The position numbers and the translations under genes were made by a program. The notes beneath the pieces were generated by a model, which did not search any database, was not told the DNA's origin, and saw only the letters and a program-made list of their open reading frames with translations. Positions 5,073 through 20,013 of a stretch of DNA of 25,377 nucleotides are shown here, in pieces. Location of the stretch: the IMG/VR virus record IMGVR_UViG_3300047462_000344, positions 64,001-89,377 of that record. One strand, given 5' to 3'. Every line of letters begins with the position of its first letter. Within the stretch, counting starts at the first letter, position 1. This DNA comes from a virus.

Positions 5073-6776
5073 TCAGTCCCATTCATCATCCTCTTCCGGC
5101 GGGGGCGGTTTGGGAATCACCTTCGCCAGTTCCGCCTCCGTAAAGTCCCATAGGGCCTGGCTGACCTGGGGTGGTTTCGCCATCACACCAACCCACGATC
5201 CGCGGCAGTTGTGCACCACGAAGCCGCCGGCCACGTAGCTTTCGTCTTCGGCCACAGCGAAATTATAGAGCTTGGCGTTCGTCACCTTGCGGCGCGTTAG
5301 TGCCACCACGTCGAGATGGCCAAACACGTACGCGCCGTCGTGGTTCATGGCCACGGAGCAGTATCGAACGTCCTGAAATTTGAGATTGATGAACGGCCGC
5401 TCGCACGTCGGGCAGACCTTGGCCAGCGCGGCGATCTTGTCGCCCACGACAAGCTGGCCAGACGGAACCCACCCACGCGCGGTCATGACGGGGTGTTCGC
5501 CCGTCGTGGCCGGAAGCGTCGCTTTGTTTCGACCGTTGAATGTAGCCCGGGCGCCATGCACGACGCCGGTATGGCTCACGCCTTTCAACACCCATGTGAC
5601 GGGCCGAAAATGCCCACGGTGCGTAAGCACCGAATCGCCGACAGCAATCTCCGAAATGGGTTTCCATCCACCCGAGGTGTAGATCGGGATATGCGCATCG
5701 ACGAAGCAATGGGGGTGCTGCACCCCGGCGGCGGGCCACCACAACTCGGCGGGATCCCGGGGGACAAGCCCGGCCGCGGTCCGCTTCATCGGGGCGGCGA
5801 ACCGGCCCACATTGGTTTTCCCCTCCCACACCTCGGTATCGCCGTCGGGGAAGGGTTTGGTCGGGCTGACCACGGTGAAAATCTTGCCGTTGATTCGGGC
5901 GCAGAACGGGCACGCGCCCCGGTACGCCTCCATGCGCTTTACCTGCTGGCCAGGATTGATGGTGGAGATGAACCCTTGGTTCATCGCCTCCCCACATTCC
6001 GTCACGGCGATGCGCCGGCAGTCCCGGTTGAACTGGCCGAAATTATCGAACAGCCTGGTTTTCAGCCGTTCCGGGCTGCCTTCGCGCTGGCCCAGCACCA
6101 TGGCCTGGACATGCTCCAGCACGATGCCCCGCATCCGGCCCTTCATCCCCTCCGTGGCCTGCGTCACGGCCGATGCGGCGCGGGCCCGGGCGATGCGCAC
6201 CGTGGCGATTTCAACCGGCGTCAGAACGCGCGGCGGCACGGCCGCGAAGGTCGTCGGCACGAATTCGGCCAGGGCATTCATCTGGTCCGGCCGCAGCGGC
6301 GTCGCCACGGACGCGGCCTGGATTTTGCCGAGCAGGGCAGCCCGCACCACCATGTATTCGGCTTCCGTCTGGATCACGCCGTCGGGCAGATACCGCTGCA
6401 CGATATATTCGGCGGCGAGGAGCCAGTCATCGAGGCTCCAGGCCTCATGCGGCTTGGCGCGGAGATATTTCACCACCTCCTCAAACCGCATCACATCCCA
6501 GCGATGCCAGGGTTCGGTATCCTCCGCCTTGCGCAGCTCGCCGATCGGTTCGCCGAGGAGGAGCCGGGCGAACGCGTCCTGTAGCTTTTGAATGATGGCC
6601 TGGAGCCGCCTCGTAACGGCCTCAACGTGGCCGGCTATCCACGGGTTTTCATGGCGCGACCAAATCGTATCGTCATGGGCACCAGGCTCGGCCAGCGCCT
6701 TGACCATGTCCTCCAGGCACCCCTCGCAGTGCTCCTCAGGCACGCCAGACAGATCGATCAGGGCCGGCCGGATCAT
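5073..6776 (-). CDS. MuF/SPP1 gp7-type head morphogenesis protein containing an intein
   Basis: This 567-residue precursor has a MuF (SPP1 gp7) minor head protein as extein. The family segment runs from about residue 240: RIAVTECGEAMNQGF, then EAYRGACPFCARINGKIFTV, then LWWPAAGVQHPH, continuing after the intein as CRGSWVGV. Joining the exteins restores the conserved HPxCRGxW motif. The intein is residues 357-523 and is described separately. The spliced protein would be about 400 residues. MuF proteins sit at the portal and assist head assembly or DNA delivery. ATG 6776 overlaps the previous stop (ATGA). Portal and zeta-domain genes lie directly upstream, the usual late order. The C-terminus is acidic and proline rich (PPPPEEDDEWD). 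Confidence 0.88.
   Translation of the reverse strand: MIRPALIDLSGVPEEHCEGCLEDMVKALAEPGAHDDTIWSRHENPWIAGHVEAVTRRLQAIIQKLQDAFARLLLGEPIGELRKAEDTEPWHRWDVMRFEEVVKYLRAKPHEAWSLDDWLLAAEYIVQRYLPDGVIQTEAEYMVVRAALLGKIQAASVATPLRPDQMNALAEFVPTTFAAVPPRVLTPVEIATVRIARARAASAVTQATEGMKGRMRGIVLEHVQAMVLGQREGSPERLKTRLFDNFGQFNRDCRRIAVTECGEAMNQGFISTINPGQQVKRMEAYRGACPFCARINGKIFTVVSPTKPFPDGDTEVWEGKTNVGRFAAPMKRTAAGLVPRDPAELWWPAAGVQHPHCFVDAHIPIYTSGGWKPISEIAVGDSVLTHRGHFRPVTWVLKGVSHTGVVHGARATFNGRNKATLPATTGEHPVMTARGWVPSGQLVVGDKIAALAKVCPTCERPFINLKFQDVRYCSVAMNHDGAYVFGHLDVVALTRRKVTNAKLYNFAVAEDESYVAGGFVVHNCRGSWVGVMAKPPQVSQALWDFTEAELAKVIPKPPPPEEDDEWD
5208..5708 (-). other. Mini-intein (167 aa, Hint fold) inside the MuF protein
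   Basis: The insert starts with Cys (codon at 5708) in CFVDAHIPIYTSGGWKPISE, followed by a GDSVLTHRGHFRPVTWV block typical of Hint N-terminal motifs. It has TGEHPVMT, which fits the conserved block-B His, then a KLYNFAVAEDESYVAGGFVV block, and ends in HN before Cys+1 of the C-extein. There is no LAGLIDADG endonuclease. Between the two Hint halves lies VCPTCERPFINLKFQDVRYC, a CxxC pair plus a further Cys resembling a zinc knuckle. The insertion splits the conserved HPxC motif of the head protein, so splicing should be needed for a functional product. Confidence 0.85.
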
Positions 6777-6874: not shown

Positions 6875-8803
6875 GTCGGTCCCTTCGGTTAGATTGCCGT
6901 CTCCGGCGCCTTCCGCCTTTTCCATGTCGCGCGCCGGTTCGTAGGCGCCTCGGTATCCGGGGGGGAACCCGCCGCTTCCATGCGTGCCCAGCGTGCGCGG
7001 ATATGGTCCGGTACCAGTTCGTCCCGGCCTGTCTCGATCAGCGGCCGGCAATCCTGATAGTCCGCGTTCTCCTCCGTCAGCTTCATTCTTCTTCTCCGAA
7101 ATCAGGCGAGGCTCAGCCCCCTTGGCGACATTATTGTCGCGGAATGACCAAGCGTCAACCATGGGTTTTATGGCGTCGAAATTGGCCTCGTTCGCGGTGT
7201 TCGACAAGATCACGGCTGGCGGCACGTACCGCTTCGTCTTCCCCAGGAAGCGGCCCACCGCCCGCTTCGCCTTCGTCTTCCCCAGGAAGCGGCCCACCGC
7301 CCGCTTCGCCGCTTCTTGTCTGGGTAGATGCATGTAGTGCGCTTCCACCCTGTATCCGGATTCCTTGAATTTTTTGACCAGTGCCGTCGCCTTGGCGCCG
7401 GTTTTCAGCGTCGCGTCATGCACGATATTCAAACCCGCTTTGTGGGCGATGCGGGTGATTTCGTCGAATATATCCCCCGATTCCTCGTGCACTTGGGCTG
7501 CGTTCCACCCCTTGTATTCGGGCAGCATCTGCTTGATTTCGTCGGCGTCCAGCACGATCGCCTTCGCGGGATCGTACACCTTACCGGCAAACCAACTCTT
7601 ACCAGACCCTCCGCGGCCACCCAGAATCGTGAATGTCGGCCTTTGACCCTTCGCAGGGGTGGCGGCGGCGACCGCCTTTTCGGACAGAATGTGTCCAACG
7701 ATTTTCTGGTGCAGTTTGACGCGTTCCGGCGTCCACTTCCCGTCTTTCTTATGAGCATCAATGGTCTGGTCGAGCTTGGCAATGTCGGCCTCGACGTCAC
7801 GTATCCTATCCGCCGTATCTGGCGGGAAAGACGCCAGAACCGATTCGGGAGATACCGCGGCATCATCGTGGCCCCTCGCAAAACTGGCTGCGGAGAACTG
7901 CTCGGGGTCCACCGGTCCTGTCGGCGCGGCCCCGCCGGGCGTTGCGGGCGGCGCTTCCGGCGGTGCGGCGGCCGGCACCGGCTCGCCTTCCGCGCCAGGC
8001 ACAGGGCCGGTGAGGTGTTCGTGCCGCACGGCCTGCTCGGTGCCATCTGGCTTGCGCAGCGTCACGCCATGCAGGCCGGAGGCGACGATATGCCCCTCCC
8101 CCTGGACCAAGCCATGCTGATACCCAACCTTGTCGCCATGCTTCATCGGCGAGCCTGGCCCGCCCGTCGTCGGGTTTTCCGGCGTCGGCTTTTGCTCCCC
8201 GGGCACTCCCTTGTCAGTCCGCTCCCATCGCTTCGTCTGGTGGCCGAGCTTGTCCGTCACAGGTTCCAGCGCCAGACCGGGCCGGTTCGCTATGCCGCCG
8301 GCGCCCGCTGCCGCATCCGCCTTGAAGAACATGGCGCGTGCCAGGACAGGCATGCGGGGCGGCGGCGCATCCAGGTCGGCCAGGACGGCACCCAGCGCCT
8401 TGCGCATCTCCTTCAACCCGCCGAGCAGCGGATCGTCGGTTTTCCGATCGGGCAGGTTCGGCGAGCCTTCATAGTCCTGGGCGGCCGTGACGTAGGTCTC
8501 GCCGGCGCCACCCTTCCCCTCTTTCTCGACCGTGGCGAGGTAGCGGGTCGCGCCGGTATGGTCCCGCACCAGCATGCCGTCGGCGCCGGTGTCGAGCACG
8601 TCAACACCACGATCGACCCGGGCTTTGTGGCCCAGATAGGACGCGGTGGGGAAGCCATGCGCGGTCTTCCCGTCATGGCCCATGAACCCGTCCTTACCCT
8701 TCGCCACGACCCGCACCGCGACGGGTCCGCGCTCGGGATGCGTCGCAAAGACATGGTCCCCGATTTCGATGCCGGAGCCGGCCTGCTTATCCTTGGCACC
8801 CAT
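6773..8803 (-). CDS. Head-associated protein with zeta-toxin kinase domain
   Basis: The 676-residue frame has an SH3-like N-terminal segment (IEIGDHVFATHPERGPVAVR), a second similar segment near 222-266 (KHGDKVGYQHG ... HEHLTG), a Pro/Ala-rich linker (270-300), a helical stretch and a zeta-type P-loop kinase domain from about 385 to 570. Walker A is GGRGGSGKS (395-403), followed by VLDADEIKQMLPEY and a VHDATLKTG strand. Zeta toxins phosphorylate UDP-N-acetylglucosamine; phage head-linked versions have no proven substrate. There is no epsilon antitoxin gene beside it, and it sits between portal and MuF, so a virion or delivery role is more likely than a toxin-antitoxin pair. The start overlaps the portal stop (TGATG). 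A 13-residue tandem duplication lies at 499-524, and the tail after residue 572 conflicts with a better coding frame. Confidence 0.8.
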   Translation of the reverse strand: MGAKDKQAGSGIEIGDHVFATHPERGPVAVRVVAKGKDGFMGHDGKTAHGFPTASYLGHKARVDRGVDVLDTGADGMLVRDHTGATRYLATVEKEGKGGAGETYVTAAQDYEGSPNLPDRKTDDPLLGGLKEMRKALGAVLADLDAPPPRMPVLARAMFFKADAAAGAGGIANRPGLALEPVTDKLGHQTKRWERTDKGVPGEQKPTPENPTTGGPGSPMKHGDKVGYQHGLVQGEGHIVASGLHGVTLRKPDGTEQAVRHEHLTGPVPGAEGEPVPAAAPPEAPPATPGGAAPTGPVDPEQFSAASFARGHDDAAVSPESVLASFPPDTADRIRDVEADIAKLDQTIDAHKKDGKWTPERVKLHQKIVGHILSEKAVAAATPAKGQRPTFTILGGRGGSGKSWFAGKVYDPAKAIVLDADEIKQMLPEYKGWNAAQVHEESGDIFDEITRIAHKAGLNIVHDATLKTGAKATALVKKFKESGYRVEAHYMHLPRQEAAKRAVGRFLGKTKAKRAVGRFLGKTKRYVPPAVILSNTANEANFDAIKPMVDAWSFRDNNVAKGAEPRLISEKKNEADGGERGLSGLPAADRDRPGRTGTGPYPRTLGTHGSGGFPPGYRGAYEPARDMEKAEGAGDGNLTEGTDMAAARIVFTGAQAPDTISGEPLILFAKAIDTRK
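6889..7086 (-). CDS. 65-residue ORF nested in the 3' end of the zeta gene
   Basis: ATG 7086 follows a purine-rich GAGAAGAAGA. The protein begins MKLTEENADYQDCRPLIETG and continues with a charged helix (DELVPDHIRARWARMEA). Over the first 20 codons, third positions are G or C in 17 of 20 in this frame, but in only 7 of 20 codons of the overlapping zeta frame, so this is the better coding frame there. It ends 14 bases before the next ATG. Its last 20 residues, after a run of seven Cs, look less natural. No family is recognised. Confidence 0.5.
   Translation of the reverse strand: MKLTEENADYQDCRPLIETGRDELVPDHIRARWARMEAAGSPPDTEAPTNRRATWKRRKAPETAI
7232..7309 (-). repeat. 39-bp perfect tandem duplication in the zeta gene
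   Basis: Two identical 39-base units (7232-7270 and 7271-7309) repeat the 13 residues AKRAVGRFLGKTK. The length keeps the frame. Perfect identity, including silent positions, points to a recent event, or to an assembly artefact. Confidence 0.95.
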
Positions 8804-16983: not shown

Positions 16984-17042
16984 GTCAGTAACCACACGCA
17001 GTTCCGATGCGGCACCGTATCCACGACATAGTTGCGCCGCAA
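16980..17042 (-). CDS. Possible 20-residue coupling peptide
   Basis: A short frame with a TTG codon at 17042 begins after the stop at 17054 and ends in TGA overlapping the next ATG as ATGA. The peptide (RRNYVVDTVPHRNCVWLLT) has plausible composition. The start is weak and no ribosome site is clear, so it is listed only because it bridges a 70-base gap with the junction type used throughout the operon. Confidence 0.22.
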   Translation of the reverse strand: MRRNYVVDTVPHRNCVWLLT

Positions 17043-17053
17043 GATGTGCTTCG

Positions 17054-17434
17054 CTACCCGAACGGTGCGTGCCGCACCATTTCCACGCTGTCCGGTATGT
17101 CCGGCATCTCGACGTGCTGGCCGGCCATGGCGTGACTGCAATCGGCCTGGAACTCAATCACGCCGGCGCGTAGGAAGTAATGGCACCGGAATGTATGGCC
17201 AGGGTCGGCTGATTTGCACCCGATATTCATCGACGGCATCATGGTCGGCCGGTCGGTATCGCCGTTCCAGTGCCACTTCGACCCATTACGGAACGGGATA
17301 TCCGTAGCGAAATGGTGCATCAGCCTGCAAGCCGGGCACCAATGCGCAATCGTAGGGACGTGGACAACGTTTCCAGGCCGGAAATACTCATCCGGGCACC
17401 GCGCCAGTTTGGCGCTGATCCTGTAGAGCGTCAT
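17054..17434 (-). CDS. DUF6527 family protein
   Basis: The 126-residue protein matches the phage DUF6527 pattern: HWCPACRLMHHF, WHWNGDTDRPTMMPSMNI, CHYFLRAGVIEFQADCSHA, then a closing VEMPDIPD. The CPAC pair and later Cys/His residues could bind a metal. ATG 17434 overlaps the upstream stop as ATGA. The function of the family is not known; it is common among lysis- and packaging-adjacent genes of phages. Confidence 0.85.
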   Translation of the reverse strand: MTLYRISAKLARCPDEYFRPGNVVHVPTIAHWCPACRLMHHFATDIPFRNGSKWHWNGDTDRPTMMPSMNIGCKSADPGHTFRCHYFLRAGVIEFQADCSHAMAGQHVEMPDIPDSVEMVRHAPFG

Positions 17435-17649
17435 GCGCGCCTCTCAATCTGGCGCCACGTCCGCCCGTCCACGCATTCCCACTTCCCCTCGGGCAAGGTG
17501 AATCCCGGGTTTTGGGCCAGCCATTGCTGCTCGACGACCTGGACGGTCGCGGTGGACATGCAGGCCTGCGGCGGGAAATAGACGCCGAGGGAGAGTGGGC
17601 GTACCCACATGCACGCCGCGCCTTTGCAGGCCCAGAGCAGCAGGATCAT
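17431..17649 (-). CDS. Small protein with hydrophobic N-terminus, downstream of holin
   Basis: ATG 17649 overlaps the holin stop (ATGA). The 72-residue product opens with MILLLWACKGAACMWVRPLS, short for a full membrane helix but possibly a signal or anchor, and goes on to VEQQWLAQNPGFTLPEGKWECVDG, a motif seen in small phage proteins near lysis genes. A spanin role is conceivable from position, yet there is no long coiled coil and no clear lipobox. The function is left open. Confidence 0.6.
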   Translation of the reverse strand: MILLLWACKGAACMWVRPLSLGVYFPPQACMSTATVQVVEQQWLAQNPGFTLPEGKWECVDGRTWRQIERRA

Positions 17650-18203
17650 GGCTTGCCTCCCATAACGGCTGTTTTCGCGGCCGTAATCTTGGTCATCATC
17701 GGGCCAGCCACGCCGGCGACCTTTTCGACGGTCCGATACGCACCCAGGCCGAGCATGGGGACGAGCAGCGAGGTCAGGGTGGACGTGTCGAAGGCGGGCA
17801 GCGCGGCCGTCACGCCAGCGAAACGCGCCACATAGGACACCAGCGGCGCCACCATGCAGTTCCAGGCCAGGCCGGCGCCGCATACCCAGCCAACGAAGGG
17901 GCGCCAGCCGGATACGAACGCGCTTTCGCTGGCAACCTCCTTTGCGTCGATCGCCGACTGCGATGCTTCCATCTGCGCATCGAGCATTGCGGCCTTGTCA
18001 GCCGCGGCCTGGGCAGCAGCGGCGGCAGCAGCCTTGTCAGGAATCAGATCGACCAGGCGCGCCACCACGGGCCCGAGCACGGCAGATGCCGCCCCTGACA
18101 CGCCGCCCGTGAAGAAATTGGCAAGATCGTCGAGTATGCCGGCCATGGGATACACTCCTTTGGGTTGAGGTGTAGTTACGATATCGTCGAGTATGCCGGC
18201 CAT
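17646..18203 (-). CDS. Three-helix GTA-type holin with two tandem starts
   Basis: The protein resembles the 3TM holin family of phages and gene-transfer agents: an Ala-rich helix (DKAAAAAAAQAAADKAAM), then SGWRPFVGWVCGAGLAWNCM, a second hydrophobic stretch (APLVSYVARFAG) and a third (LTSLLVPMLGLGAY). Holins open the inner membrane to time lysis. A 57-bp tandem duplication supplies two identical AGGAG-ATG modules. ATG 18203 gives 185 residues beginning MAGILDDIVTTPQPKGVYPM; ATG 18146 gives 166 residues beginning MAGILDDLANFFTGG, the ancestral form. The gene follows the GH19 endolysin. The two forms differ by a polar 19-residue extension with Asp, Asp and Lys. Confidence 0.85.
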   Translation of the reverse strand: MAGILDDIVTTPQPKGVYPMAGILDDLANFFTGGVSGAASAVLGPVVARLVDLIPDKAAAAAAAQAAADKAAMLDAQMEASQSAIDAKEVASESAFVSGWRPFVGWVCGAGLAWNCMVAPLVSYVARFAGVTAALPAFDTSTLTSLLVPMLGLGAYRTVEKVAGVAGPMMTKITAAKTAVMGGKP

Positions 18204-18239
18204 GGGATACACTCCTTTGGGTTGAGGTGTAGTTACGAT
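18126..18239 (-). repeat. 57-bp perfect tandem duplication over the holin start
   Basis: Units 18126-18182 and 18183-18239 are identical. Each contains the end of the endolysin-holin gap, an AGGAG ribosome site, ATG and the first holin codons. The length is 19 codons, so both starts are in frame. The endolysin stop (18235-18233) lies in the upstream copy. Perfect identity indicates a recent duplication or an assembly artefact. Confidence 0.95.
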
Positions 18240-18907
18240 ACCGCAGTAGCGGCCTGGAGGATGGGGAGGAGCTTGTTGGCGTAGGCGATGCGGTCGGCGT
18301 TACCGAGCATGGCCGGCCCGTTGATGCGCCGTGTGATTTCGGAGATCGACCATTGGTCGGCCAGATCGTTTAAGCCGCCCCGGTCGGACCAGAACCAACA
18401 CGCCGACGCAGCGGCACCCGGGATCGTTCTCACCCAGTCGGGTGTGCTGGCGATGTCATGACCGGACGCGGCAGCGAAAGCGGTGTAGGATGATCGACCC
18501 GTCATCTGGATGGCGCCACCGCCCCGGTACAGCCAGCCGTCGCCGCTAGACTCATCCCCGTTGCCGAGCCGGTCGGCATAGACATGGTTGGCCAGCTTCA
18601 CAGGGTTGCGTGTGTATTGCGCTGCATCGTCTAGCGACGCGAATTGATGCGGATACACGGCGAAGAGATGCGCGGCCTGCGAATAGAACAGGTTCTCCGC
18701 CAATGCCGTGAACAGCCCGCTCTCCTCCGCCACGTTGGCGATGAACGCCGCGGCCCGTTTCGGGGTGGTGATGCCGGCCGACATCATCGGACCGACCAGA
18801 TTAGTGGCCCAGGCCATTGAGTCGGCATGCGGCGCGATGGCCTGGATTGCAGGGATGATCGCACGCACCGGCACAAAGGCGATGGGAGTTTGTGCGGTAT
18901 CAGACAT
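18233..18907 (-). CDS. Endolysin, glycoside hydrolase family 19
   Basis: The 224-residue protein has the GH19 layout of phage endolysins: an N-terminal helical part, AAAFIANVAEESGLFTALAENLFYS (55-77, shown here in two parts: AFIANVAEESG and ALAENLFYS), LANHVYADRLGNGD, then DGWLYRGGGAIQMTGRSSY. The Glu of the usual HESG is kept (62), while the preceding His is Glu here. The second conserved Glu is in AENL (71). GH19 enzymes cut the glycan strands of peptidoglycan. ATG 18907 overlaps the previous stop by eight bases. There is no signal peptide, so export would rely on the holin that follows directly. Confidence 0.9.
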   Translation of the reverse strand: MSDTAQTPIAFVPVRAIIPAIQAIAPHADSMAWATNLVGPMMSAGITTPKRAAAFIANVAEESGLFTALAENLFYSQAAHLFAVYPHQFASLDDAAQYTRNPVKLANHVYADRLGNGDESSGDGWLYRGGGAIQMTGRSSYTAFAAASGHDIASTPDWVRTIPGAAASACWFWSDRGGLNDLADQWSISEITRRINGPAMLGNADRIAYANKLLPILQAATAVS

Positions 18908-19946
18908 GACCGGACCACTCCATCCGGCCGCGCATCTGCTCCTCCATCTTGTCGAGCAGACTGAGGACACATTCGGTGCGCGATACCGACGGCGGCAGGC
19001 TCTGCACCGCCTTAATTTCGGCGGCGAGGCACGCCACGATGTCGAGCGTCTCCGGCATCACTTCGATGCGCCCCACGGTATGCGGATCGCCCCCCCCCAC
19101 TTTCAGGTCAGGACCGGAATTTGGAGCGACCCCGATTCGGAATGCTGCCTCGCCCCGCTCCCCGCAGGTTCGGGAGCAGAACAACGTGCCGCCCGCGATT
19201 TTCCATGTCTCGGCACCGTTCGGGTTGAACATCTGCCCGCAGGTCATGCACTTCATCGCGGCGGCTGGGTGTTTGGGCGGCGCGGCGCCGCGCGCAGCAT
19301 CCGCCACCGGAGCAGGTTTGGGGTCTAGCTTGGCCCCTTCCTGGAATGTGACCTTGGGGTAATGAAGTCTGTAGCACGTCACGGAACAATACTCCTTCCC
19401 GTTTTTCCCACAGAACTTCTGCGCGGGGTCAATGGTAAAGGACTGGTCGCAGGCCCAGCAAATGGTGCGCGTCATGGGTGGAGCAGCCGGTGGATCGATC
19501 TTGACAACCCCGTCAGGCGCAGCGGCAGCCACGGGTGCGGCCGGCTTTTCTGGGATCGATGTGACGCGAGGGAACGGGTCCACTTTTGCTGGTGGCGTCT
19601 TAGCGGGCGGTGTTGGCGCTGGAGGTGCCGGCGAGGGTTTTGAGCCAATACCGCTGAATACCGTTGGCGGCTCAGGTAATTTTTCCAGATCGGCGAAAAT
19701 GGCGAGTCGTGGCGCCTGCTCCGATGTAGTCGGTGGCGGCCTTGTTGTCTCGCCACGGCGCGCGGCGGGTGGCGCCAGTTCGGCAGACGACAGGCGTTTT
19801 GCCCGCGCATCTATCACAAATGGGGGCAAGCCCATGCCGACCCGCACAATGTTGATGTCGCCAACCTTGCCATAGGCTTTCAGCGGCACGTCATTGGCCT
19901 CCGCCCAAGCCATGGCGTCGTCGTGAGTTACGCGAACGGTTTCCAT
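18900..19946 (-). CDS. Pro/Ala-rich protein with two C-terminal zinc modules
   Basis: ATG 19946 follows AAAGGAACC. The 348-residue protein has an N-terminal 50-residue domain (THDDAMAWAEANDVPLKAYG then INIVRVGMGLPPFVI), a long Pro/Ala/Lys linker (70-150) and two similar cysteine modules: CWACDQSFTIDPAQKFCGKN with YCSVTCYRLH, and CMTCGQMFNPNG with LFCSRTCGERG. Both follow a CxxC...CxxxC layout like treble-clef fingers. The last part is a helix (VLSLLDKMEEQMRGRMEW). Its stop overlaps the endolysin start. A nucleic-acid or protein scaffold role is possible; no family is named. Confidence 0.68.
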   Translation of the reverse strand: METVRVTHDDAMAWAEANDVPLKAYGKVGDINIVRVGMGLPPFVIDARAKRLSSAELAPPAARRGETTRPPPTTSEQAPRLAIFADLEKLPEPPTVFSGIGSKPSPAPPAPTPPAKTPPAKVDPFPRVTSIPEKPAAPVAAAAPDGVVKIDPPAAPPMTRTICWACDQSFTIDPAQKFCGKNGKEYCSVTCYRLHYPKVTFQEGAKLDPKPAPVADAARGAAPPKHPAAAMKCMTCGQMFNPNGAETWKIAGGTLFCSRTCGERGEAAFRIGVAPNSGPDLKVGGGDPHTVGRIEVMPETLDIVACLAAEIKAVQSLPPSVSRTECVLSLLDKMEEQMRGRMEWSGHV

Positions 19947-20013
19947 GCGCGCGGTTCCTTTCCATACGGCCCCGCATCGTTACTGCACCGATTGGACGTT
20001 GCGCAATACCTTT

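Follow-up and report, generated by a model that had tools for sequence, protein, structure and literature searches.

Does the holin gene of this uncultured virus, whose beginning is present twice in tandem, code for two proteins of different length, and would such a pair of products set the time of lysis? The question was raised by an earlier note, which described a duplicated ribosome site and start codon and saw in them a possible equivalent of the dual-start system of lambda S. The window analysed is a stretch of 25,377 nucleotides (bases 64001–89377 of a virus record of 89,377 bases in total), and the genes and repeats discussed below are read on its minus strand.

The repeat itself is exact. 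Tandem Repeats Finder identifies 2.0 copies of a 57-bp unit at 18126–18240, with 100% match and zero indels. The copies occupy 18126–18182 and 18183–18239, and one more base matches, which brings the shared exact string to 58 bp, a length for which chance matching cannot account. Each copy, read on the minus strand, is ATCGTAACTACACCTCAACCCAAAGGAGTGTATCCCATGGCCGGCATACTCGACGAT and contains the last endolysin bases ATCGTAA, then AAAGGAG and, after an 8-nt spacer, ATGGCCGGCATACTCGACGAT. The duplication covers the endolysin gene's end, the AGGAG Shine–Dalgarno (SD) site, the ATG and holin codons 1–7, and the AGGAG-to-ATG spacing is 8 nt in both copies. The upstream copy (18183–18239) carries the endolysin TAA (18235–18233), AGGAG at 18216–18212, ATG at 18203–18201 and the first codons of a long holin form. 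The downstream copy (18126–18182) carries AGGAG at 18159–18155, ATG at 18146–18144 and the first codons of a short form. The earlier description of a perfect, in-frame duplication with the endolysin stop inside its upstream copy is thus borne out, noting that a random duplication is in frame in about 1 in 3 cases by chance. The junction between the copies is a 10-bp palindrome, ACGATATCGT, at 18178–18187, because the ends of the 57-bp unit are short inverted repeats.

The assignment of the gene as a holin, likewise proposed from the letters, is confirmed by profile searches: it matches PF11351 (GTA_holin_3TM) with 50.7 bits (curated cut-off 24.8, E 3.2e-13) and the holin family phrog_3427 (E 1.1e-22). 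By family, it is a gene-transfer-agent holin of the 3TM type. Candidates for its three membrane segments are hydropathy peaks at residues ~30–56 and 103–138, with a weak one at 133–151, and the helices of its structural model (pTM 0.43) at 36–52, 97–128 and 140–162. The preceding gene codes for an endolysin (phrog_181, 18233–18907), whose frame is untouched by the duplication. The terminase places the phage near the ~90-kb Aeromonas phage ST4, Pseudomonas phage Dolphis and Bordetella phage PHB04 (43–60% identity). Elsewhere in the window, a minor-capsid-like gene (5073–6776), tentatively assigned by a weak match to SPP1 gp7 below the cut-off, carries a putative intein (TIGR01443 intein C-terminal region above the cut-off, Hint_2 weak). 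Its predicted splicing would join PH to CRGSW, a junction that we take to be the conserved HPxCRG motif of this minor-capsid-like family.

With a unit of 19 codons (57 bp) and no stop in frame, the coding capacity comprises a protein of 185 residues from ATG 18203 (17646–18203) and one of 166 residues from ATG 18146 (17646–18146), in agreement with the second complete SD–ATG module that had been noticed. SD, spacing and start codon are identical at both ATGs, and the folding prediction gives similar accessibility of the SD in the two copies (unpaired 0.35 and 0.39–0.40). The distance from the endolysin stop is 29 nt for the upstream ATG and 86 nt for the downstream one. A promoter and terminator scan of positions 17000–20000 gave no signal exceeding chance. 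Both holin starts are probably in use. The 19-residue N-terminal extension of the long form, MAGILDDIVTTPQPKGVYP, has a net charge of −1 and is modelled by AlphaFold2 as a short helix followed by coil at low confidence (pLDDT 56–64), from an alignment in which six rows from annotated phage records were left out.

Which of the two starts is ancestral was addressed with 160 further loci from viral and bacterial collections, a few annotated phages and four earlier loci. The measure used was the number of codons that separate the start from the conserved GWRP motif, with an unrestricted list of candidate starts kept alongside. PF11351 proteins, known from gene transfer agents and many proteobacterial phages, share with this holin the conserved core GWRPxxGW ... 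LGxGxxR, and their starts lie 55–80 codons ahead of GWRP (mean 65) in all 159 relatives with assigned starts, within a search limited to 55–82 codons. The same distance is 79 codons for the short form and 98 for the long form; therefore, the short form is ancestral-like and the long form derived. By this measure the 166-residue product has the normal length of the family and the 185-residue product is a derived extension. The extension has no aligned counterpart in the relatives shown in the alignment, save for stray first residues. An origin in one step by duplication, as had been suggested, fits this polarity.

The two-unit arrangement is not shared. The relatives were to be searched for variants carrying it, and none of the 159 has a comparable duplication of the start; the longest exact direct repeats near their holin starts measure 16, 12 and 11 bp versus 58 bp here. 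The exact SD–ATG module is absent from the IMG/VR records searched, its own record aside, and from all other collected loci. The SD followed by MAGILDD has six matches in IMG/VR, all in unrelated proteins, MAGILDD being the beginning of other proteins too. A single-protein search of IMG/VR yielded no close holin relatives, DNA-level relatives in phage records are confined to short endolysin stretches, and a plasmid search returned two distant holins. No similar holin is present in the portions of DNA taken from the 80 terminase-related IMG/VR stretches and the two annotated records. Since the closest holin relatives found are only ~30–45% identical, the one-unit ancestor is deduced from the start positions of the family. 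Note that in some of the relatives (for example L205, L227 and L317) two starts with SD-like sites lie close together; lambda-like tandem starts may therefore exist among PF11351 relatives, in no case through a duplicated module.

Known dual-start holins provide the frame in which a function can be considered. In lambda S (S105/S107) and phage 21 S (S68/S71), as in the gene described here, a single holin gene has two in-frame starts, here ATG 18203 and ATG 18146 with their ribosome sites, and codes for products that differ at the amino terminus. In those systems the longer product (S107, S21-71) has an added positive N-terminal residue that alters its topology (PMC9636201), whereas the present extension has a net negative charge. 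Their starts are 2–3 codons apart, in contrast to the 19 codons introduced here by perfect duplication of the whole SD–ATG module, and the holin belongs to PF11351 and not to the lambda S family. Presence in the relatives, which would support rather than strictly define a lambda S-type system, is not observed either. The suggested equivalence with lambda S is thus not upheld, and the antiholin analogy is possible but weak. TcdE of Clostridioides difficile (M1/M25/M27) is a nearer functional analogue for a 19-residue extension: its 24-residue M1 extension is non-lytic and inhibitory for lysis, it is absent from phage relatives, and a second SD initiates the shorter isoforms (PMC6200909). Therefore, a long extension can inhibit without copying the lambda mechanism. 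TcdE differs in that its M1 start is described as introduced and later improved through changes of start codon and SD, without duplication, in a different holin with a different role.

A working dual-start holin, with the 185-residue form as antiholin or as an isoform that delays lysis and with lysis timed by the relative use of the two starts, on the model of lambda S, phage 21 S or TcdE, could draw on the equal quality of both initiation sites and on the TcdE precedent for long non-lytic extensions. We consider it unlikely given the charge of the extension, the lack of comparable duplications in the relatives and the identity of the two copies, which gives no indication of retention. A further argument against it comes from another duplication, unrelated to this one, elsewhere in the contig, a perfect 39-bp tandem repeat (13 codons, in frame) at 7232–7310 within a zeta-toxin-like gene (8803–6773), whose unit is single copy in six relatives; a mutational or assembly by-product is therefore at least as likely an origin for the 57-bp repeat. 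The latter may belong to a series of recent duplications, or it may have been introduced in assembly. Doubling of a single-copy phage stretch during assembly of the metagenomic contig, by a process that also generated the repeat at 7232, is somewhat more credible than a dedicated lysis device, if still doubtful. It is favoured by the presence of two perfect duplications within 11 kb when the remaining 64 kb have no perfect tandem repeat of at least 18 bp, by the junction homology of just 1 bp at both (exact matches of 58 and 40 bp at periods of 57 and 39) and by the occurrence of the feature in one uncultured virus record only; the duplication may be absent from the natural phage population. 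Against it, both lengths are multiples of three, for which chance is ~1 in 9, and the repeat inside a coding gene preserves the frame; the lengths slightly favour real duplications. Moreover, 57/58 and 39/40 match no single k, which dismisses a k-mer-size origin common to both, and short tandem repeats are collapsed by assemblers more often than they are created. The 1-bp junctions also disfavour slippage at short direct repeats for either duplication. We do not count two duplications in one contig as exceptional: the excess over all collected loci is weak (P ~0.07), most repeats in those loci being low-complexity arrays.

Two other readings have far lower standing. Only one start might matter: re-initiation past the endolysin could make the long form the predominant product, or the long form might not be made at all. 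The shorter distance of the upstream ATG from the endolysin stop is in line with the former, yet the downstream SD–ATG is intact and its predicted accessibility is no lower, which renders an exclusive start highly improbable. Hardly better placed is a reversible switch, in which the repeat would lose or gain units in replication, so that genomes with one, two or three units would coexist in the population with differing ratios of short to extended holin and a single slippage-prone site would provide heritable variation in lysis timing.

The explanation that we retain, to which we give about an even chance, is a recent, probably near-neutral tandem duplication able to yield both holin forms. 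In one event, the endolysin gene's end would have been duplicated in tandem along with the ribosome-binding site, the start codon and the first seven codons of the holin. The ancestral SD and ATG would be retained in the downstream copy, from which the normal 166-residue holin would still be made, while the extra in-frame copy would add a second initiation site from which the 185-residue isoform is probably made as well. Because the upstream start is now closer to the endolysin stop, ribosomes re-initiating past the endolysin may favour the long form, which could even dominate if holin translation needs such re-initiation. The most likely net result would be a small effect or a slight shift in the time of lysis; an antiholin evolved for the purpose would not be involved. 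As the copies are undiverged, the event is recent (or an artefact) and gives no indication of selection, and we infer near-neutrality as well as recency, although zero divergence between copies is equally expected of a young, selected change. Neither selection nor function can be deduced from undiverged copies of a feature present in no second genome. On balance the repeat is probably either a mutation of the ordinary kind, whose potential consequence is interesting, or an error of assembly; that it works as a lysis clock is possible, but the evidence does not support it.

If the repeat is an artefact or neutral, it calls for caution against inferring regulation from young tandem duplications in metagenomic contigs. 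Should it exist in the phage and be expressed, it would capture the origin of a two-product holin gene at a stage at which the ribosome-site and start module has been duplicated whole but has not diverged, and it would imply that dual-start regulation need not arise codon by codon.
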